DNA of 64,000 nucleotides, taken from Ignavibacteriota bacterium. GTDB taxonomy: Bacteria > Bacteroidota > Ignavibacteria > UBA10030 > BY39. Shown here piece by piece: positions 907 to 63,059 of this stretch. A model generated the notes under the pieces. The model worked only from the letters and a program-made list of their open reading frames with translations. It was not told the DNA's origin and did no database searches. The position numbers and the translations under genes are program-made. Every line of letters starts with the position of its first letter. Within the stretch, counting starts at the first letter, position 1. The stretch is from positions 124,001 through 188,000 of the forward strand of contig QOQV01000005.1 of assembly GCA_003327435.1 (NCBI GenBank). Direction: 5' to 3'.

Positions 907-1551
907 TCATTTCTTGGGTAGTAATCTCTCGCTTAGCACTTTTGAAACTGCCTGTGATTTGGAATGGACATGCAGTTTATCGTAAATATTTCTCAAATGT
1001 GCACGAACTGTAAAAACACTCAAAAAGAGCTTATCAGCAATTTGTTTATAATCATAGCCCTGAACAAGGCATTCTAAAACTTCAAGTTCTCGTGGAGTTA
1101 GGTGGTAATCAGCTTTTGGGGGTGGGGCAATTTGTTTGAATATTTCTATTACTTTTCTTGCTATATGAGGCGACATCGGTGTTCCTCCACAAAAAGCATT
1201 ATCTATTGCTTCTAATAACTGTTGGGGCATAACTGGTTTGGCAATATATCCAATAGCACCAGCACAAATTGCATTAAATATATTATCGTCATCCTCATAA
1301 ACTGATAAGATAATAATTTGTATTCTTGGAAATTTTTGCTTCAAAATCGCGGTGGCTTCAGTACCTGAAATTCCGGGCAGACCAATATCCATCAATACAA
1401 CATCTGGTTGAAGATCATCGACATCATCTAAAAAATCCTCTGCTGTAGCATATACTCCTACCACTTCAAAAGACTTTGTTGTCCGCAGAATATACGCAAT
1501 TCCATTTCTATAATCGGCGTTATCCTCAACTATTGCTACGCTAATTGGCAT
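907..1551 (-). CDS. NarL/FixJ-family response regulator
   Basis: 214 aa from the ATG at 1549-1551. A longer reading from a TTG at 1560 adds only three residues and has no better ribosome site. Receiver domain residues 4-120: acidic pair E9/D10, phospho-acceptor D55 in LMDIGLPG, conserved Lys K105 in YIAKP. C-terminal LuxR-type helix-turn-helix (LTPRELEVLECL, then QIADKLFLSVFTVRAHL), residues about 145-208. It should bind DNA when phosphorylated. The gene lies 112 nt downstream of the large propeller histidine kinase on the same strand, so that kinase is the likely partner. Targets cannot be read from the sequence; nearby secreted-protein genes are candidates only by position. Confidence 0.93.
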   Translation of the reverse strand: MPISVAIVEDNADYRNGIAYILRTTKSFEVVGVYATAEDFLDDVDDLQPDVVLMDIGLPGISGTEATAILKQKFPRIQIIILSVYEDDDNIFNAICAGAIGYIAKPVMPQQLLEAIDNAFCGGTPMSPHIARKVIEIFKQIAPPPKADYHLTPRELEVLECLVQGYDYKQIADKLFLSVFTVRAHLRNIYDKLHVHSKSQAVSKVLSERLLPKK

Positions 1552-1663
1552 AGGGAACAAAATATTGTTTTTATTAAAATGTATATTTATTACTTCAAAT
1601 TAGCAATAGAACAAATTAACTATGTTTTAAAAAATTATAATAAGTCAGCCAGAGCATTTAATT

Positions 1664-4573
1664 CTATTTTTCAATTTTTAATGAAACTAACAATTCCGTA
1701 CCAATATTACGCTCAGATTTTATTATTAATTTCCCCTTCAATTCTTTTGCTCTCATTTTTATTGAATTTATTCCCTTACCAGAAGTAATTTTGTTAGGGT
1801 CAAAACCTTTACCATTATCAACAATTTTAATATTTAAATAGCCCGAACTATAATTAGTAATAATTGTAAGGTCTGAACATCCAGAATGCTTACATACATT
1901 GTTTACTGCTTCCTTTAGAATCAGCCATAAATTTTTCCGTATTTCGGGTGATAAATTCATTGAAGGTAATATTTCTTTTGGAGGAATTTCGAAATTAAGA
2001 TTTATCATCTTTACCTTACATAAAGGAACAATCAAATCACGAAAACGAACCAATAAGCTCTCAATTGTTTCGGTTTTTGTATCAATTGTCCATATAATAT
2101 CACGAATAGAATCTACAGATTCTTTTGCCAATGTTATTATACGTTCAAGTAATGGGGAGTTTAATTTAGCTTCGTCTTGTACAATTTTACTAAACATAGC
2201 TATACTACTCAAATTGGTAGCAATTTCGTCATGAAGGTCGGATGCGACTCGTGTTCGCAATCTTTCTATCTTTAATAATTGACTAACACGATAATTATAC
2301 AAAATGTATCCCATTAAAAATATTAAAAAAATGAAGGAAGTAATAAACCACCAGGTTCTATAAAATGGTGGAAGAATTGTAAATGTTATTGAAGCAGGGT
2401 TTGTACTGACTAAATCATTTATGTTAATTGCTCGAACTGAAAATTTATATTTTCCTGGCTTTAGCGATAGAAATAATATTTTGTTATTATTCGTAACCTG
2501 CCAATTTTGATTTTCTCCATCAATTATATACTCATATCTAATAGCTTTTTCCCCTTTAAAACTAACCCCAATGTATTCAATCTCGCAATTATTTTGATCA
2601 TATGAAAATTCCATCTCATTCTGAAGTTTTATTTCCTTTCCATTCACAGTCATTTTCTTTATATAGACTGGAGGGGGTATCAATCCCAACGTATCCCTTC
2701 TGTACGAATAAATAAATATACCATGTTGAGATAAACCCCATACTTTTTCATCAGATAAAATACCACACTTATTATATGAACCCCCAAAAAGTTCTGGCAC
2801 AACTTTAATTTGAAAAGGATTTCTTAGATTCAGATAACACATTCCATGTGCAGTTGCAAACCAAACTAACGAGTGATTATCTGCTGTAATATCAAAAACA
2901 GAATTACTTGGCAACCCATGAGTAATATTTAAATTTTTATAACCTAATGAATCCAAAATAAATACACCATCTCTTAAAGTACCAATAAATATTCTGCTGT
3001 CATTACATTCATAAAAAGATTGCACTCTTTTATATTTAAATTCATTAACTTCTTTCACATTGATTATCTCATGATTTTCATCAGTTGAATATGTAAATAA
3101 ACCTCCCTCATATAATCCAATCCAGATTGTATTATCATTGCTTTGAAATATTTTATACACCTCATCTCCCTCCGACATTTGAAAGATACTCTTTGGAAAA
3201 AATTTACGGAATGGAGTAAAAAAACCATACGGTTTAAACTGAGTTGCACACCATAAATGACCCTTTTTATCGTAATATAACCCCCAAACTAAATTTTTTT
3301 GTTTATATTCCTCAACGAAGATTGGTATAACATTATTTAAATTAAACTTAAAAACTGCACTATCCGTTATAGAGCAATATAAATTTCCATTCCTGTCTGT
3401 TGTAATTACCTCAACTTTCTTTGATTTATCTTTAATATTTAAATAAAACTCTTTAAAGGACCAAACATCAGATGCTTTTGGAAAAATCTTGATTAACTTA
3501 TCGTTAGTTGCTACCCAAATATTTCCATCATACTGCACTGCATCACGAACATTATTGAAATAAAAATACACGATGTTCATATTTTCAAGTTTCGCTAAAC
3601 CATCATAAAAATTTCCAAACCATAAATTTCCTTCGAAGTCCCTATGCATCACATATGAACTTCTAAAAGGTAAGCCATTTAACTCTGTCAAAAACATATT
3701 GTCTAAAGGATTTTCTTTTTTAATTTTCCAAATACCTTTTAAATCAGCTGCCCAAATAAATCCCGAACCATCATCGAGAAGGGGTTTAATATGTTGATGT
3801 TCAGATTTGAGTACCTGTAATATCTTTTGATTCATGATACGAACCAACAATCCATTCGCTGTTCCAATCCAAATATTTTTTTCGGAATCCATAATAGCAT
3901 CAACAGTGTAATCTCCGGGTAACAGATTTAATTGTATAGTACTCCATTCTTTATTGGAAATATCATAAACAACACAATTAAAATCACTCACAATGATGAT
4001 TAAATTGTCGGAAATCTGAAAAATTTTTTTTGCGGTTTTCCATTCTGTATCATTTTTTAATTTAAAAATTTTTCCATTATTCAATATATATATTCCATCA
4101 CCAGTCCCGCACCATAACCTTCCATCTGCATCTTCAAAAAAACACAAAACAGAATTCGCATCTCTATTAATAGGATCAATTTCTATACGAGAAAAATTTC
4201 CATTTGAATATTTTAAAATTCCCTGATTTTCTAAACCTACCCATATTAAATTTGAATCTTTTTTACTTTCTAAAAAGCATATTACTCTACCTAACAGAAC
4301 ACTATCTACGATTGAGCAATTCGTGAAATTAGTTCCATCAAATATACTTATCCCTTCAGTGGTACCAATCCATAAAAAACCATTTGAATCTTGATATAAC
4401 GCTCTAATCCGATTTCCGATAAGTCCATCTTTAACTGTATAGTGTACAAAGTGATAGGAAAATTCTAAATTTTGTGGGTTAAGTTTTATTAAATTTTCAA
4501 ATCCATACAGTTGAATGGAAAAGTTTGGTAAGACGATGTTCAGGACAAAAATTAAATATATTTTTTTTAACAT
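1664..4573 (-). CDS. Propeller-type sensor histidine kinase (Reg_prop / Y_Y_Y / HisKA_3)
   Basis: 969 aa. N-terminal signal sequence or anchor (about 1-23), then a long periplasmic region made of two-component-regulator propeller repeats (for example DSNGFLWIGTTEGISIFDG near residue 65, repeated W-x-G-T/N blades to about 640), a Y_Y_Y domain (about 660-735, ending in GKYKFSVRA), one transmembrane helix (about 745-765), then a cytoplasmic kinase core. The phospho-acceptor is His781 in SDLHDEIATNL (HisKA_3 type); the HATPase part has the N-box KEAVNNVCKHS and DNGKGF. This layout is hybrid-two-component-like but without a fused receiver; the separate NarL regulator directly downstream (907-1551) should take the phosphate. 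The family senses extracellular ligands, often glycans, in Bacteroidetes; the ligand here is unknown. An AAGGGG site lies ~10 nt before the ATG. Confidence 0.92.
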   Translation of the reverse strand: MLKKIYLIFVLNIVLPNFSIQLYGFENLIKLNPQNLEFSYHFVHYTVKDGLIGNRIRALYQDSNGFLWIGTTEGISIFDGTNFTNCSIVDSVLLGRVICFLESKKDSNLIWVGLENQGILKYSNGNFSRIEIDPINRDANSVLCFFEDADGRLWCGTGDGIYILNNGKIFKLKNDTEWKTAKKIFQISDNLIIIVSDFNCVVYDISNKEWSTIQLNLLPGDYTVDAIMDSEKNIWIGTANGLLVRIMNQKILQVLKSEHQHIKPLLDDGSGFIWAADLKGIWKIKKENPLDNMFLTELNGLPFRSSYVMHRDFEGNLWFGNFYDGLAKLENMNIVYFYFNNVRDAVQYDGNIWVATNDKLIKIFPKASDVWSFKEFYLNIKDKSKKVEVITTDRNGNLYCSITDSAVFKFNLNNVIPIFVEEYKQKNLVWGLYYDKKGHLWCATQFKPYGFFTPFRKFFPKSIFQMSEGDEVYKIFQSNDNTIWIGLYEGGLFTYSTDENHEIINVKEVNEFKYKRVQSFYECNDSRIFIGTLRDGVFILDSLGYKNLNITHGLPSNSVFDITADNHSLVWFATAHGMCYLNLRNPFQIKVVPELFGGSYNKCGILSDEKVWGLSQHGIFIYSYRRDTLGLIPPPVYIKKMTVNGKEIKLQNEMEFSYDQNNCEIEYIGVSFKGEKAIRYEYIIDGENQNWQVTNNNKILFLSLKPGKYKFSVRAININDLVSTNPASITFTILPPFYRTWWFITSFIFLIFLMGYILYNYRVSQLLKIERLRTRVASDLHDEIATNLSSIAMFSKIVQDEAKLNSPLLERIITLAKESVDSIRDIIWTIDTKTETIESLLVRFRDLIVPLCKVKMINLNFEIPPKEILPSMNLSPEIRKNLWLILKEAVNNVCKHSGCSDLTIITNYSSGYLNIKIVDNGKGFDPNKITSGKGINSIKMRAKELKGKLIIKSERNIGTELLVSLKIEK

Positions 4574-4749: not shown

Positions 4750-7700
4750 TTATTTCAACACAACCAACTTTTTAACATCCGTAAACTTTCTATTTGGCAC
4801 TGCTACGCTCGTTGCATCCATCCTGTAAAAATAAACTCCGCTTGATACAAACTTTCCTGAATTGTCGGTTGAGTTCCATTCTACCGATTTGAAGCCAGTT
4901 TCCTGTACTTCATCTACAAGGGTCTTAATTTCCTGACCGAGTACATTGTATATCTTTAAAGATACTTTACTTTCCACAGGAAGTTGATATTTTATCGTAG
5001 TAATAGGATTAAACGGATTTGGATAGTTTTGTTCAAGATTATAGGATGATGGTAATAGGTATTTTTCAGGCTCGATGTTAACTGTTCTTTGTACATATTT
5101 TATTGTTGTATAAATTGACGAATTACGGTAACTGCTAACACCCGTCACATAAACATTTCCTGAACCATCTACTGAGATTGCTGTTGCTCTATCATTACCA
5201 TTCGTCGGTCCATTGTACCTTGAAACCCACTGCTGTACGCCTGAACTACTATACTTGATTGTGGCATAATCATCGTTTGTACCTGAACCATAACTATAAC
5301 CCGTCACATAAACATTTCCTGAGCCATCTACTGAGATTGCTGTTGCTCCATCATAATAATTCCCCGGTCCATTGTACCTTGCAACCCACTGCTCTTCACC
5401 TGAACTATTATACTTGATTGTGGCATAATCCCCGTTTGTACCTGAACCATAACTAACACCCGTCACATAAACATTTCCTGAACCATCTATTGCGAGTGAT
5501 GTTGCCTCATCATAATAATTCCCCGGTCCATTATATCTTGCAACCCACTGCTGTACACCTGAACTATTATACTTGATTGTGGCATAATCGTATCCTGTAC
5601 CTGAACCATAACTAACACCCGTCACATAAACATTTCCTGAACCATCTACTGAGATTGCTTTTGAATAATCATTATAATTAGCCGGTCCATTGTATCTTGC
5701 AACCCATTGCTGTACGCCTGAACTATTATACTTGATTGTGGCATAATCATAATCATAATTGGAAGGATAAGTGATTGTACTTACACTCATACCAGTCACA
5801 TAAACATTTCCTGAACCATCTACTGCGATTGCTTTTGAATAATCATCATAATTCACAGGTCCATTATACCTTGCAACCCACTGCTGTACGCCTGAACTAT
5901 TATACTTGATTGTGGCGTAATCATACCTTGTACCTGAACCTGCACTCTTACCTGTTACATAAACATTTCCCGAACCATCTACTGAGATTGCTATTGCCCC
6001 ATCCTCATCGTTCCCCGGTCCATTGTACCTTGCAACCCACTGCTGTACGCCTGAACTATTATATTTGATTGTGGCATAATCATACCCTGTACCTGAACCA
6101 ACACTCGAACCCGTTACATAGACATTTCCTGAACCATCTACCGCCATTGCTGTTGCTCTATCATTACCATTCCCCGGTCCATTGTACCTCGTAACCCACT
6201 GCTGTACGCCTGAACTATTATACTTGATTGTGGCATAATCATCGTATGTACCTGAACCATAACTATAACCCGTCACATAAACATTTCCTGAACCGTCTAC
6301 TAAGACTGCTTTTGTCTCATCGGAAGATATCCCCGGTCCATTGTACCTTGCAACCCACTGCCGTAAGCCTAAACTATTATACTTGATTGTGGCATAATCC
6401 TCGTTTGTACCTGAACCAACACTCGAACCCGTCACATAAACATTTCCTGAACCATCTACTGAGATTGCTGTTGCTCTATCATCACCATTCCCCGGTCCAT
6501 TGTACCTTGCAACCCACTGCCCTACACCTAAACTATTATACTTGATTGTGGCATAATCCTCGTTTGTACCTGAACCAACACTCGAACCCGTCACATAAAC
6601 ATTTCCTGAACCATCTACTGAGATTGCTGTTGCTCTATCATTACCATTCCCCGGTCCATTGTACATTGCAACCCACTGCTGTACACCTGAACTATTATAT
6701 TTGATTGTGGCATAATCATACCCTGTGCCTGAACCTACAATCCAACCTGTCACATATACATTTCCTGAACCATCCACTGAAATTGCTGTTGCTCTATCAT
6801 CACCATTCCCCGGTCCATTATACCTTGCAACCCACTGCTGTACGCCTGAACTATTATACTTGATTGTGGCATAATCCTCGTTTGTACCTGAACCATAACT
6901 AACACCCGTCACATAAACATTTCCTGAACCATCCACTGAAATTGCTCTTGTATGATCAGTATAATTTGCTGGTCCATTGTATCTTGCAACCCATTGCTGT
7001 ACGCCTGAACTATTATACTTGATTGTGGCATAATCCTCGTATGTACCTGAACCATAACTAACACCCGTCACATAAACATTTCCTGAACCATCTACCGCGA
7101 TTGCTGTCGCATAATCATTATTCGAATATCCATCGTATTTTGCAACCCACTGCTGTACACCTGAACTATTATACTTGATTGTGACATAATCAGAGTGTGT
7201 GCCTGAAACATAACTCTTACCCGTTACATAGACATTCCCTGAACCATCTACTGCGATTGCTTTTGTAGAATCAGAATACGCTCCATTGTATCTTGCAACC
7301 CACTGCTGTACACCTGAACTATTATACTTGATTGTGACATAATCAGAGTATGTACCTGAACCATCACTCGAACCTGTTACATAAACATTCCCTGAACCAT
7401 CTACTGCGATTGCTGTTGCATAATCATCACCATTCCCCGGCCCATTGTATCTTGCAACCCATTGCTGTACACCTAAATTATTATATTTTATAGTTAAAAA
7501 ATCATAACCTACAAGTAAAGAATCGCTATACCCAGTTACATAAATATTACCACTTGCATCAACTGCAATATCGGTCGCATAATCAATAGATGGTACCAAC
7601 CCAGATGCATAATGAGCAACCCATACAGTTGCAAAAGTATCAGAAGTTTGTGAAGAGAGCAAGTCCTCACCAGCATCAAAAAAATCTTGTTTCTTCACAG

Positions 7701-8052
7701 TGCGAGAATTACTCTCTGGAAAATCAAATTTATATCTCAGCTGAGGTGGGAGAAAATCTTCACCTAAATCTGTATCTCTGCTATGTTTTTCCCAAGGTCG
7801 TTCTGGATAGTGTGAATGTTTTTCTTCTGTACCATTCAATTTCTCAGTAGCTTTATATCTTCTAGAATACTTCTCCCGTAAGTGAGTCGGTAGAAAATGT
7901 CCATCAATATAATCTCTTATAATATTTTTATCCAGAATTTTGATTTGAGAAGATTCTCTTTTTTCAATAATACCCTGTGAAAATAAAACTTGAAAACTCA
8001 AAACAAAAATTATACCTCCCACCAATAATTGGATAAATAAGCGCCATTTCAC
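4750..8052 (-). CDS. SBBP beta-propeller repeat protein with T9SS sorting domain
   Basis: 1100 aa from a GTG at 8050-8052, chosen because AGGAG (8061-8065) sits 8 nt upstream and the product then begins with a proper signal peptide (MKWRLFIQLLVGG..., cleavage after the hydrophobic run near FSQ). A TTG at 8085 is also open but would put 11 charged residues before it. After a ~130-residue polar N-terminal region come 16 units of about 53 aa, each with the SBBP signature VDGSGNVYVTG and a DYATIKYNSSGVQQWVARYNG link. The last ~90 residues are a T9SS type-A sorting domain (LEQNYPNPFNPITT, VLGQEI, SGVYFYRM). Expected to be a secreted or surface-attached propeller-type protein; partner unknown. The repeats are nearly identical in DNA, implying recent expansion or gene conversion. 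Confidence 0.9.
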   Translation of the reverse strand: MKWRLFIQLLVGGIIFVLSFQVLFSQGIIEKRESSQIKILDKNIIRDYIDGHFLPTHLREKYSRRYKATEKLNGTEEKHSHYPERPWEKHSRDTDLGEDFLPPQLRYKFDFPESNSRTVKKQDFFDAGEDLLSSQTSDTFATVWVAHYASGLVPSIDYATDIAVDASGNIYVTGYSDSLLVGYDFLTIKYNNLGVQQWVARYNGPGNGDDYATAIAVDGSGNVYVTGSSDGSGTYSDYVTIKYNSSGVQQWVARYNGAYSDSTKAIAVDGSGNVYVTGKSYVSGTHSDYVTIKYNSSGVQQWVAKYDGYSNNDYATAIAVDGSGNVYVTGVSYGSGTYEDYATIKYNSSGVQQWVARYNGPANYTDHTRAISVDGSGNVYVTGVSYGSGTNEDYATIKYNSSGVQQWVARYNGPGNGDDRATAISVDGSGNVYVTGWIVGSGTGYDYATIKYNSSGVQQWVAMYNGPGNGNDRATAISVDGSGNVYVTGSSVGSGTNEDYATIKYNSLGVGQWVARYNGPGNGDDRATAISVDGSGNVYVTGSSVGSGTNEDYATIKYNSLGLRQWVARYNGPGISSDETKAVLVDGSGNVYVTGYSYGSGTYDDYATIKYNSSGVQQWVTRYNGPGNGNDRATAMAVDGSGNVYVTGSSVGSGTGYDYATIKYNSSGVQQWVARYNGPGNDEDGAIAISVDGSGNVYVTGKSAGSGTRYDYATIKYNSSGVQQWVARYNGPVNYDDYSKAIAVDGSGNVYVTGMSVSTITYPSNYDYDYATIKYNSSGVQQWVARYNGPANYNDYSKAISVDGSGNVYVTGVSYGSGTGYDYATIKYNSSGVQQWVARYNGPGNYYDEATSLAIDGSGNVYVTGVSYGSGTNGDYATIKYNSSGEEQWVARYNGPGNYYDGATAISVDGSGNVYVTGYSYGSGTNDDYATIKYSSSGVQQWVSRYNGPTNGNDRATAISVDGSGNVYVTGVSSYRNSSIYTTIKYVQRTVNIEPEKYLLPSSYNLEQNYPNPFNPITTIKYQLPVESKVSLKIYNVLGQEIKTLVDEVQETGFKSVEWNSTDNSGKFVSSGVYFYRMDATSVAVPNRKFTDVKKLVVLK
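5083..7623 (-). repeat. 16 tandem ~159-bp coding repeats (SBBP units)
   Basis: Inside the SBBP gene, units of about 53 codons repeat from W155 to about residue 1001 of the TTG-based reading. Long blocks such as CACATAAACATTTCCTGA and ACTTGATTGTGGCATAATC recur almost unchanged on the plus strand in nearly every unit. Variation is concentrated in the short loops after YNGP and after YVTG. The twelfth unit has a 5-residue loop insertion (TITYPSNYDYD). The first and last units are the most diverged, the usual pattern for arrays homogenised by unequal crossing-over. Confidence 0.92.
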
Positions 8053-8060
8053 TTTTCCTT

Positions 8061-8065
8061 CTCCT
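8061..8065 (-). promoter_or_regulatory. Ribosome binding site deciding a GTG start
   Basis: Minus-strand AGGAG, 8 nt before the GTG at 8050-8052 of the SBBP gene. It lies inside the longer TTG-initiated reading, which argues for the GTG. Confidence 0.6.
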
Positions 8066-8111
8066 ATTTTTTTAAATAAATACAATATTTCTCAATATTA
8101 GTATTTGTTCG

Positions 8112-8140
8112 AATATATATAATTATTTTTTTATTGTCAA
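8112..8140 (-). promoter_or_regulatory. Consensus sigma70-type promoter of the SBBP gene
   Basis: Minus strand TTGACA (8135-8140), 17-nt spacer, TATATT (8112-8117). Predicted start near 8105, giving a ~50-nt leader to the GTG at 8052. Identical hexamers and spacing occur upstream of the BMC and AsmA genes. Confidence 0.65.
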
Positions 8141-8313
8141 GTGTAGGAAAATCGAAATCTTTATTCCCATATCTTATTTGAAATCAACAAATTCTACTAA
8201 GAGCTTCGTTATTTGTAAAAACTAATAGATTTGAAACTAATCTTGAACTTAATTCCATTTGTATTTTACAAACATTTTTACAATCTTAATAACACAGTCA
8301 GTAAAGAAAAAAT

Positions 8314-11300
8314 ATGCTAAAAAAGTTGCTTATAACATCTTTGGTTCTACAATTCTTTTTATCTGAATTTCATGTCTATTGCTTAAACAATACTACTGAT
8401 AGAAAAATACTATCAAAACCATTTACATTATTACCAAGAAATACAAATAACATAAAAAGAATAGACCAACCATTAAACAAATTTCTACCTTCTTTTACAT
8501 CAACTGTGGTATTTGAAGAGAGTTTTGAAGGTAGTACAGGATTTCCACCAAGTGGTTGGAAAACAATAAACGCCGATGGTGGGGGAACAACTGGTCCATG
8601 GTTTCAGGGTAACACATCCGTTTTTGCTGCATACAACGGAATCGGATATGCTGCAGCCAACTATCAGGGTGCTAACGATTTTCTAATTGATGAATGGCTA
8701 ATAACTCCACTTTTAACAGGGATTAACTCTTCTGACACTCTTTCATTCTGGCACCGTTCTCCAGATTATTCAGCATGGGACGACTCAATTGAAATTCGTA
8801 TCTCCACAACCGATACAAATATTAGCTCATTTAACAAAGTAGTAGATTATTTTAAAACCTCTACAACCGGCTGGGCACAAAAAAAATATCCATTGAAAAA
8901 CTTTATCTCAGACGGTGCTAATATTTATATTGCATTCAGATATCTAATTTATGATGGAGGAGTTTCTGGACTTAATTCAGATTATGTTGGAATCGACCTT
9001 GTACAGATATTACGACCACAACAACAATATGATATTCAGACAGCATTGATCGACTTTCCGCTTAACAATTCAAAAATTTTAATAGGAAATTCTTTTGAAC
9101 CAACAGTAACTTTCCAAAATGTTGGCACTACAACACTGAGCAACACTCCTGTACGACTTAAAATCGTATCACCAACTGGAAGTATATTTGAAGATAGTAA
9201 AACTATTAATACAATTCTGCCTCAACAATCAATACAGATTATATTTAACACTTACACAATAGAACAAACAGGTAAGTACAAACTTCAAGCATTTACACTT
9301 TTAAGTAATGATCAAAATCGTGCTAATGATACATTAACTATTTCATTTACAGGTGCAAATCTACTCGGTGGCACTTATACTGTTGGAGCTGGCGGTAAAT
9401 TCTCCTCTATCAAACAAGCTATAGATACACTTACTGAAAACATCATAGGTAATGATGTAACTTTAACACTAATAAGTTCTCTTTATAATGAGGAACCCAT
9501 ATTAATTGGTCCACAATCATATTTATCAGATGAAAAGAAGATAATCATCAAACCAGCAATTAATGTTTCTCCTACAATAAACATTACACCAACACCGTTA
9601 CACCCTTATGGCATTTCAATATTTGGTGCTTCAAAAATTATAATTGACGGTGCAAATTCGCCTTATCCACAAAGAAACTTAAAACTCAATGTGAGTGGTG
9701 CTTATGGTAAAAAAGGGATCTTCATTGGAGGAACATTTAATTCAAATGCAGATAGTAATATCATACGCAATTTAATTATACGAATAGGTGCGGATTCACT
9801 GAATAACTCTGGAGAATTTATCGGTATTTTACTCTCGGGTTATAATTATAATTACAAAGATATAGGAAACAAAATTATAAATTGCGATATATCAAATCAT
9901 GGCTTTGCTGGAATTGCTGCACAGTGGCAGGAGGGAATGCTTATAGAAAAAAACTATATTCACGACTGGAATCAGCTTGCTGGAGAAAATGATGTATATG
10001 GTATTCTCCTTGATGATGGAGTAACCAACTCGATAATTCAAAAAAACAAAATTGGAAATTTAAAGAATTACACTAACTATTACTGGGCATATGGAATAGA
10101 AATCAATTCAGGGATTGGCTCCAATAATTTAATTGCAAATAATATGATTTATAATATTCTTGCTTCAGGTAATGGAACATTACCTAACATCACCAGAGCA
10201 ATTTATAGTAGCAACTTATCGAATACTGGAGATAAATATTATTATAACTCCATATATCTTTCTGGAACAGACAATTCTTCGTCAACTCAAAGTAGAATCA
10301 CAGGATTTGAATTTATTGGAGGTTCAAATATTGAGTTAAAAAACAATATAGTAATGAACGAAACAAATCTTCCAAACTCAAGCGGTAAAGCTTATTGTAT
10401 ATATTTATCTTCATTACCAAACAATTTCTCATCAAATTATAACAATCTATATACATCAGGTACAAGCGGTGCAATAGGTTTTTATCAATCAAATAAAATT
10501 ACCCTTGATGAATGGAAAGATGCATTCACTCCGAAGCAGGACAGTTTGAGTATAAGTGTAAATCCATTTTTCGTATCACCCGCACTTGGTGATCTTCATA
10601 TTGAAATCACATCAAATTCTCAGATAAACAATATGGGAATACCATTAGCTCTAATTCAAGACGATATCGATGATGCTCCAAGGAACTCACAATCTCCAGA
10701 TATTGGTGCTGATGAATTTACACCAGCTAATAAAGCCGTGAATGTTACATATAATCCATCATGGAATTTAGTATCTGTTCCATTATTAGTTTCCGATTAT
10801 CAGAAAAACGCCGTATTCCCAACAGCAATTTCTAATGCATATTCATTTAATGGAAATTACATCTCAAATTCAATACTTACAAATGGCAAAGGTTACTGGT
10901 TAAAATTCCCTCAAAACACAACACAAACTATTGGAGGTGACCCATTACCTGAGACAAATGTGACACTCACTCGGGGATGGAACCTTATTGGCTCGATCGA
11001 CCACACAATCCCGATTCCAATAAATCAAATCTTTGATCCAATAATTTACGGATATAATCAAGGATATGAAATTGTTGATTCAATTCAACCGGGTAAAGCT
11101 TATTGGTTGAAAAGTTACAAAGATACAACAATCACTTTAGGTAGTACACTACAACATAAACCTTTTTCAATTAAAAATAAAATAGAAGAAAGATTTAACA
11201 AAATTAAAATTTCAAATGAGCTGGGTTATGAACAGGTCCTCTATTTTGGAGAACCAACAGATGAAATAAATAAACCTATTGAAATGCCACCTATACCTTC

Positions 11301-12937: not shown

Positions 12938-14527
12938 ATGAAGCATTTAAAATTTTTAACAGTACTTTTATTAATTACAACTCTCAGTATTTATTCATAT
13001 CCAGGAAAAGTTTTAAAGAGTTTTAAAATTCCGTATAACTACCCAACCGGACTCGTCTATGACGGGAAATATTTATGGTTTGCTGATCATAAAGTTGATA
13101 AACTTATTTGCATTGACCCTTCGGATGGAAAAATAATCCGTGAAATAAATTCACCCGGTTTCTGGCCTATGGGTTTGGCATACGATGGAAAATATTTATG
13201 GAATGTAGATGAAAAACAGAAAAAAATCTATAAACTGGATCCAAAAGATGGAACGATATTGAATACAATAGATGCACCAAGTGATAATCCCTGTGGTTTA
13301 GCATGGGATGGCTATACACTCTGGACCACAGATTATAGAGAGAAAAAAATTATGAAAATTGATTTAAGTGATGGCACCGCAGTTCAATCATTCCCCGCTC
13401 CAGCAAATTATCCTCAGGATTTAGTATATGATGGGAAATATCTCTGGTGTTCTGATCGTATGGCTGATGAAATATATATGATTGAACCCAAATCTGGAGA
13501 TGTAATTATAATAATCAAATCGCCAGGACCCTATCCAAGAGGTTTAGCTTTTGATGGAAAATATTTATGGAATGTAGATTACCAAAATGATGAAATCTAT
13601 CAATTGGTCAGAGAAGATGATGAACTATTTAAATTGGAAAACGAGCGACAGGCAATTATTACATTTACACATCAAGTTAAAATTTACGGCCAGGGCGAAT
13701 TAAAAGATTTAAATGTCTATATTGCAACACCAGAAAATTTGCCTCAACAACAAATACTCAATATCGAATTTTCTCCAGGAAATTACTCTTTAATAAAAGA
13801 TAGATTCAAACAACAATTTGCATTTTTTAATTACAAAAACATAAAAAATGAGACTACATTAAACACAATAATGAAAGTTAAAGCCAAAATTTCTGAAATA
13901 ACATATTTTATTTTTCCTGATAAATGTGGAAAATTAACTGATATCCCAAAGGAAATAATTAAAACATATACAACTAACGAATCAAAGTATTTGATTGATG
14001 ATGAATATATAAAAGATTTAGTAAAAAAAGTTGTTGGAACGGAACAAAACCCATACTGGATTGCAAGGAAAATCTTTGATTATGTTCGAAACACACTGGA
14101 ATATAAACTCGAAGGCGGCTGGAATGCTGCACCATTCGTATTGAAAAGAGGAACTGGCTCATGTTCAGAATATACATTCAGTTTTATTGCTTTATGTCGT
14201 GCTGCTGGATTGCCTGCTCGTTATGTAGGTAGTATTGTTGTGCGTGGCGATGATGCAAGTCTGGATGATGTTTTCCACCGCTGGCCAGAAATTTACTTAC
14301 CAAACTATGGCTGGATACCAATCGATCCTCAAGCTGGTGATAAACCACTTCCACGAGATCAAGCAATAAATATCGGACATCTTCCAAATAGATTTCTAAT
14401 CACTACACAAAGCGGTGGTAACTCTGAATATTTAGGCTGGTATTATAACTCGTTTGAAAATTATGTGATTGATCCTCAAATTCAAATAAATATAGAAACA
14501 TACGGAGACTGGGAACCAATTAAGTAA
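12938..14527 (+). CDS. Secreted propeller-transglutaminase-like protease/ligase
   Basis: 529 aa with an excellent AAAGGAGG site 5 nt before the ATG. Signal peptide (about 1-20). Residues ~25-225 are five YWTD/NHL-like blades with the refrain GLVYDGKYLW...IDPSDG. Then a linker, and a transglutaminase-like core at ~365-480: catalytic Cys in GTGSCSEYTFSFIALCRAAG, His in DVFHRWPEIYLP and Asp in WIPIDPQAGD. The family cleaves or cross-links peptide/isopeptide bonds; the substrate here is unknown. Unlike its two upstream operon partners it has no T9SS sorting domain, so it should stay periplasmic or leave by another route. The gene meets the TPR gene tail-to-tail with no spacer. Confidence 0.87.
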   Translation: MKHLKFLTVLLLITTLSIYSYPGKVLKSFKIPYNYPTGLVYDGKYLWFADHKVDKLICIDPSDGKIIREINSPGFWPMGLAYDGKYLWNVDEKQKKIYKLDPKDGTILNTIDAPSDNPCGLAWDGYTLWTTDYREKKIMKIDLSDGTAVQSFPAPANYPQDLVYDGKYLWCSDRMADEIYMIEPKSGDVIIIIKSPGPYPRGLAFDGKYLWNVDYQNDEIYQLVREDDELFKLENERQAIITFTHQVKIYGQGELKDLNVYIATPENLPQQQILNIEFSPGNYSLIKDRFKQQFAFFNYKNIKNETTLNTIMKVKAKISEITYFIFPDKCGKLTDIPKEIIKTYTTNESKYLIDDEYIKDLVKKVVGTEQNPYWIARKIFDYVRNTLEYKLEGGWNAAPFVLKRGTGSCSEYTFSFIALCRAAGLPARYVGSIVVRGDDASLDDVFHRWPEIYLPNYGWIPIDPQAGDKPLPRDQAINIGHLPNRFLITTQSGGNSEYLGWYYNSFENYVIDPQIQINIETYGDWEPIK

Positions 14528-62717: not shown

Positions 62718-63059
62718 TCAGATCCTTCACTTCGTTCAGGATGACAGTGACCGTGTTGTCAGATGTTTCGCTGCGCACAGAGGTTAAAGTCAGATGCTTC
62801 GCTGGCGCTCAGCATGACCTGCCGACTGTCTTTCTGAGTGAGTCCGTTGGTAAACGGACGAACGAAGAATCTGACTGAGTGTAGTCAGATCCTTCACTAC
62901 GTTCAGGATGACAATGGCCGTCTAGTCAGATCCTTCACTTCGTTCAGGATGACAGTGACCATGTAGTCAGATCCCTCGCTATGCTCAGGATAACACTAGA
63001 AGCGAAGCGGAGGACAATGACCGTGTTGTCAGATGTTTCGCTTCGCTCAACATGACTGG
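62717..63059. repeat. Cluster of eight degenerate dispersed repeats
   Basis: Repeat core GTCAGATCCTTCACTTCG followed by TTCAGGATGACAGTGACC. Copies start at about 62717, 62758, 62789, 62884, 62925, 62966 and 63028, with one inverted or partial copy at 62821-62878. Variants carry GATGTTTCGCTTCGCTC or GATGCTTCGCTGGCGCTC. Resembles the GATTCTTCGCTTCGCTCAG-type interspersed repeats common in intergenic DNA of this and other phyla; each unit could fold into a short imperfect hairpin. Confidence 0.75.

Follow-up and report, generated by a model that had tools for sequence, protein, structure and literature searches.

The question raised by this locus is what kind of protein is made from a long row of similar repeat units, and what keeps the units alike while parts of them vary. 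The window, by which we mean the whole stretch of 64,000 nucleotides that was analysed, comes from an Ignavibacteriota bacterium, and an earlier note had placed a recently homogenised array of propeller units in a secreted protein at 5083-7623. This location was borne out on the minus strand: at the top it takes in the N-terminal strand WVAHYASG (7600-7623), and at the bottom it reaches slightly beyond position 5089, where the second modelled ring stops.

The explanation that we favour, with somewhat more confidence than doubt, is a secreted double propeller with ongoing blade exchange, a varied face and a binding role. A single chain would fold into two SBBP beta-propellers of eight blades each, and the protein would probably be secreted. 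After the split from the sampled congener, unequal crossing-over or gene conversion would have multiplied its inner blades and moved sequence between them, and this exchange would keep the scaffold alike while blade number differs among family members (16, 9 and 2). Change would be tolerated or favoured mainly in or beside the B-C and D-A loops, which would give a varied surface on a constant scaffold. Because the scaffold appears constant and the face varied, the binding of varied extracellular partners (glycan or protein) is suggested as the likely job.

Gene architecture and predicted fold

The features of the gene are collected in Table 1. A longer reading of the gene, P0001, starts at TTG 8085 and gives 1111 aa (open frame 4750-8085, minus strand); the GTG at 8052 is the probable start, as it lines up with the ATG of a paralogue that this genome also carries, both standing behind the same ribosome-binding stretch, AGGAGAAGGAAAA. 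The frame holds 15 full SBBP beta-propeller units and one partial unit, of approximately 53 aa each, with 16 anchors of the VDGSGNVYVTG type, and Tandem Repeats Finder reports a period of 159, 14.7 copies and a score of 2843. The description of sixteen units of about 159 bp was right in period and in number of anchors but has to be amended to 15 full units and a partial one. The partial unit 16 would be expected to close with the N-terminal strand WVAHYASG. The Pfam SBBP repeat, PF06739, matches in 12 stretches with an E value of 2.3e-81 (267.9 bits against a curated cut-off of 20.5); besides SBBP, Pfam gives the tail and two matches below cut-off, and no NACHT domain ahead of the repeats. In the N-terminal region, before about query residue 130, matches came only from the two copies of the own genome among 5 genomes of the family, and a separate search gave a 42% stretch from residue 5 in the congener (G001), with an internal stop.

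Table 1. Features of the SBBP array gene, in window positions (ring residues are those of P0001).
Feature	Positions	Strand	Details and basis
SBBP gene, predicted double propeller	4750..8052	minus	1100 aa from GTG 8052, stop 4750
Putative signal peptide, 26 residues	7975..8052	minus	read by eye
N-terminal region ahead of propeller, low model confidence	7648..7974	minus	~110 residues, pLDDT <50 over most of residues 35-151
First predicted ring, residues 147-570	6376..7647	minus	VIA-align range against single rings, e.g. 8ir1_N Z 36.0
Second predicted ring, residues 571-999	5089..6375	minus	VIA-align range, e.g. 5naf_C Z 39.0, 6tjg (designed Cake8) Z 36.4
Unit 1, outside homogenised block	7405..7563	minus	65-73% to other units; pairs with paralogue's unit 1, support 1.000
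Units 2-15, homogenised block	5173..7404	minus	dS 0.254 among themselves vs 1.197 to congener's inner units
Unit 12, 15-bp insertion in B-C loop	5650..5823	minus	unit comparison
Unit 16, partial	5095..5172	minus	anchor count
C-terminal tail of type IX secretion kind (QNYPNPFNP)	4753..5058	minus	PF18962 25.5 bits, cut-off 27; TIGR04183 not among the matches listed

Both genomes encode SprA, a component of type IX secretion (1114.6 bits in the own genome), which makes export plausible; the protein is probably secreted.

The AlphaFold model, built on a 20-row alignment (mean pLDDT 78.6, pTM 0.54), has four strands per unit, and its confidence drops at residues 501-580. In VIA-align, solved single rings fall on one or the other of the two residue ranges given in Table 1. 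Among designed propellers, with blade numbers taken from their names and titles, the 8-blade Cake8 aligns with Z 36.4 (rmsd 2.1), Cake9 with 25.9 (4.1) and 7-blade designs with about 25. The 16 units and these alignment ranges were therefore read as two rings of eight, and two 8-bladed rings in one chain is what the model predicts. When the 9-blade protein of the congener was modelled, one ring was obtained at about 202-630, the first blade having low confidence. Among the matches listed for the class, many SBBP rows belong to ORFs approximately 540-570 aa long, and the commonest anchor count was eight (10 of the 37 measured rows). Judging from the strand order within a blade, the B-C and D-A loops would lie on one face of the rings.

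By sequence, the closest solved relative is CylK (PDB 7fh6, 7fh7, 7fh8, 7ron and 7roo; E 6.1e-24), whose propeller aligns with Z 35-36 at 23-30% identity in structural alignments; CylK is an alkylating enzyme, unlike the role that we propose for the present protein. The LipL53 family of SBBP lipoproteins (NCBIfam NF047494) was also matched, at 395.2 bits and E 3.5e-118, below the curated cut-off of 400.

Likeness of the units and exchange between them

Units 1-15 have a mean DNA identity of 82.7% (range 65-93%) and a mean protein identity of 76.4%, for which the words "nearly identical" in the earlier note were too strong. The note had also described the outer units as the most diverged; this applies to unit 1 and to the partial unit 16 but not to unit 15, which is 93% identical to unit 9; among the inner units, 3, 8 and 12 resemble the others least. 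Units 2 and 3 are shorter by 6 and 3 bp, and the single unit with a loop insertion that had been described is unit 12. Identity depends little on spacing: neighbours share 85.3% of their DNA and units 2 to 11 apart share 81-84%. This near-flat profile is a weak sign of stepwise unequal crossing-over, and we counted it against our main explanation. Duplication of a whole ring, which would pair units i and i+8, was rejected since identity at 8 apart (83.7%) is lower than that of neighbours and of units 9 apart (84.0%).

This gene has the highest mean internal DNA identity among the SBBP arrays that we measured. In a first survey of 22 chosen arrays, 21 of which gave a value (two of them, G004_C17 and L081, are apparently the same array), the next ranks were taken by the congener's array (78.3%) and by L073 (64.4%), with the remaining arrays at 46-57%. 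A second survey with another cutting rule comprised 37 rows, several of which are pieces of the same gene; it again placed this gene at the top, whole and as a fragment, and mean internal DNA identity grades continuously across its rows from about 46 to 83%.

Comparison with the congener shows that the blades group by gene. Silent-site difference is 0.254 among the inner units 2-15 of this array, 0.557 within the congener's array and 1.197 between the two. A FastTree tree unites the eight full blades of the congener in a single clade (0.989), beside which unit 1 and the short copy's unit 1 are placed (0.809; the two units pair at 1.000), apart from units 2-15. For none of the 15 blades did the best protein match come from the other species, nor for any of the eight in the reverse direction; all match their own array better. 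The same two genomes hold another 16-blade SBBP protein (1343 and 1340 aa) that served as a control, and in both directions all 16 of its blades match their counterparts in unchanged order. In comparisons with two more genomes of the family, the best match lay across genomes for 15 and 14 of the 16 blades. One pair of arrays, G000 C10 and G001 C7, which are perhaps not orthologues, counts against the main explanation, as 12 of 14 best matches were in the own array at low identity (0.52 vs 0.48). Exchange between units is indicated by four-gamete sets, that is, by recombinant combinations of codons: we found 151, including 7 in which both alleles differ at two or more bases. The proposal of recombination between units, made in the earlier note, is thus sustained by the grouping by gene and by these recombinant combinations.

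Blade number and loop variation

The assemblies give 16 blades for this gene, 2 for its paralogue in the same genome and 9 for the family member of the one congener compared, so that neither unit number nor unit sequence is fixed among relatives; the variable length that had been expected is found here between related genes. The congener's protein has 736 aa and 9 units (one other genome of the genus was compared). The short paralogue, at about G000:C18:267700-268815, has 371 aa from its first possible start and shares 94% identity over 200 residues of the N-terminal part, and its only blades are unit 1 and the last partial unit. Silent divergence between the short and the long copy is 0.074 in the N-domain, 0.125 in unit 1 (only 3 changes), 0.084 in both together and 0.032 in the tail ahead of the last 23 codons. 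Growth of the array after the copies had split was rejected on these values: the inner units, at 0.254, are more diverged than any of the flanks, and the array is therefore older than the split. The simpler reading would be that the short copy lost blades, unless gene conversion kept the flanks alike. The dN/dS of the short copy is 0.21 over the N-domain with unit 1; the N-domain by itself gives 0.30 and the tail ahead of the last 23 codons 0.68. Tested against one copy free of constraint, purifying selection on the short copy gave P 0.06, or 0.13 with the tail.

The last 23 codons themselves (4753-4821; L030:6745-6813) differ strongly between the long and the short copy, with a dS of 0.90 against 0.03 in the preceding 98 codons, and our search of the genome found no donor for the changed codons. 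The short gene sits between genes that by eye resemble yidC and a butyrate kinase (interval L030:5293-7018). At the corresponding place the congener (L146:3702-6428) has a 908-aa ORF that by eye resembles a TonB-dependent receptor, and an insertion site shared with the congener was rejected on this ground, with 40 of 192 candidates scored. On the side of the long copy, a long DNA match to the congener starts at window position 8259, just upstream of the gene (40 of 180 candidates scored).

Variation within the units is centred on the loops. The ten most variable columns (11, 13, 23, 24, 47, 49, 50, 52, 53 and 54) fall in the B-C and D-A loops or in adjoining strand ends, the strands being taken from the model, and seven of the ten are also in the congener's top ten. 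The loop columns used for rate estimates were set from the expected strands after the variability had been seen, with strand ends included, and this choice was not independent; with it, dividing loop dN by the dS of the full set of columns gives 1.56 (1.33-1.85 when units are bootstrapped), and the corresponding value for the other columns is 0.21 (0.13-0.33). The loop ratio was reached by none of 300 random column sets and came first among 53 rotations. Choosing the columns on the congener, which is an independent choice, gave a ratio of 2.16 (1.67-2.91) in this array, and columns chosen on this array and applied to the congener gave 1.31 relative to their own silent rate. Taken loop by loop in the congener, again relative to the own silent rate, only B-C exceeds it (2.28; D-A 0.42). 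Loop dN over overall dS is below 1 in three related arrays: L159 (0.76, 5 units), the congener's (0.55, 7 units) and L173 (0.95, 4 units). In each of the four arrays the loops evolve more quickly than the scaffold, and only in the youngest do they exceed the overall silent rate. In a parsimony count, which has little power, no single codon had an excess of amino-acid change (no column with P <0.1). Positive selection on the loops, to which the earlier note had pointed, agrees with the aggregate value for this array but not with the single codons or the three related arrays, and we regard such selection as possible. Mutagenesis by a diversity-generating retroelement was rejected: PF00078 had 0 matches in the own genome (98.59% complete), 3 of 14 genomes being positive as a control. 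A DNA search was also counted against it, as all 11 places found belong to this array, to its paralogue or to stretches of other SBBP arrays.

These results bear on an alternative in which one blade was amplified in a single burst after the species split and drift followed, exchange having ended and the variety of the little-constrained loops being unselected. Such a burst corresponds to the account of highly repetitive propellers in the available part of a published study (PMC9218822), the continuum of internal identity among the measured arrays agrees with it, and so do the loop ratios below 1 in the three relatives and the non-significant single codons. It is opposed by the seven strong four-gamete sets, by the difference in blade number between close paralogues and by a loop dN that is 1.56 times dS in this array, and we consider it possible, though on balance doubtful. 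The earlier note had likened the protein to a phase- or antigen-variable adhesin, and its repeats, probable secretion, varied loops and blade numbers that are unlike in related genes would suit one. The longest homopolymers at 7900-8400, around the start, are however two T7 tracts (homopolymers being the sole switching device looked for), the bacterium has no known host and no support for phase variation, antigenic variation or adhesion was found; we judge an adhesin of this kind improbable. That an assembly error produced the blade count of either the long or the short gene is very improbable, for although short-read assemblies of HET-D/HET-E repeats are unreliable according to the part of PMC12222747 available and exact repeats reach 115 bp inside the gene and 132 bp in common with the short paralogue, the contig is unbroken across the array, the short gene has a different location and flanking genes of its own, the congener has a third blade number and every unit is distinct from the others.

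Known propeller systems and neighbouring observations

The available text of PMC9218822 describes highly repetitive beta-propellers whose blades are more than 60% identical (median) and closer to each other than to other propellers, with independent amplification in close relatives, paralogues of 6 and 9 blades in Mastigocoleus testarum and a case of 15 blades modelled as rings of 7 and 8. Of the known kinds these are the closest to the present array, which resembles them (PMC9218822) in its mean blade protein identity of 76.4%, to be set beside the paper's median, and in that its blades are nearer to their own array (all 15 when set against the congener's, and all 8 in reverse). It differs from the cases in that text in having paralogues of 16 and 2 blades and a diverged 16-blade control in the same genomes. 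Blade amplification, differing numbers in paralogues and the placing of surplus blades in two rings are thus already known in other propeller families (PMC9218822, available text). SBBP and Ignavibacter are absent from the main text of that paper as available, and among the best-ranked matches of the literature searched we found no description of highly repetitive SBBP arrays; SBBP is a blade family for which we found no description of such turnover, and what is new here is the SBBP case.

A likeness in manner of working is seen with the WD40 arrays of HET-D/HET-E (HNWD) in Podospora. According to the part of PMC1805685 available, these show concerted blade evolution with a variable d-a loop and b-c turn, which carry the selected residues, four codons being under positive selection. 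They are fungal NLRs whose recognition function has been shown and which have alleles with lost repeats (PMC1805685 and PMC12222747, available parts), and two rings are predicted for them (PMC12222747, available part). The variable positions of our array also lie at the d-a and b-c loops, a likeness of working and not of kinship; unlike HET-D/HET-E as described in that part of PMC1805685, ours is a probably secreted bacterial SBBP protein in which NACHT and significance at single codons are absent. By analogy, the protein might be a secreted bacterial counterpart of HET-D/HET-E, in which blade exchange and selection on one face would lead to recognition of partners or non-self, the 2-blade paralogue being either a collapsed copy or the source of an 8-bladed ring made from four chains; we think this unlikely.

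Under the double-propeller explanation that we favour, the array extends continuing blade amplification to SBBP propellers; a query from this array matched 30 of 149 genomes of the class, the own genome included, at an E value of 1e-20 or better. The case carries a built-in control, since of the arrays present in both genomes a 16-blade one has conserved its blade order and another undergoes turnover. The two variable loops are the same as in the fungal recognition receptors, and this suggests that young propellers are repeatedly put to use by varying one of their faces. Should binding be demonstrated, arrays of this kind would amount to a natural collection of binding faces built on a common scaffold.

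Several further observations were made in the window and in the class. In genus g33 of family f16, at least 16-36 SBBP match rows (rows, not genes) per genome were counted in eight genomes, mostly in frames of about 540-570 aa among the matches listed, a pattern suggestive of large families of SBBP proteins with a single ring. At 907-4573, downstream of the array gene, lie a sensor kinase (Reg_prop propeller and Y_Y_Y domain) and a LuxR-type response regulator, for which there was no DNA match in the congener among the 40 of 180 candidates scored. A protein at 12938-14527 joins a Vgb-like propeller region, below the Pfam cut-off, to a transglutaminase core. At 62721-62995 there is a tandem repeat of 41 bp with a 26-base core that occurs three times in the window; in a slightly degenerate form the core of this repeat occurs 22 times in the genome (13 forward and 9 reverse, against 0 for the backwards control), and the repeat is a dispersed one.
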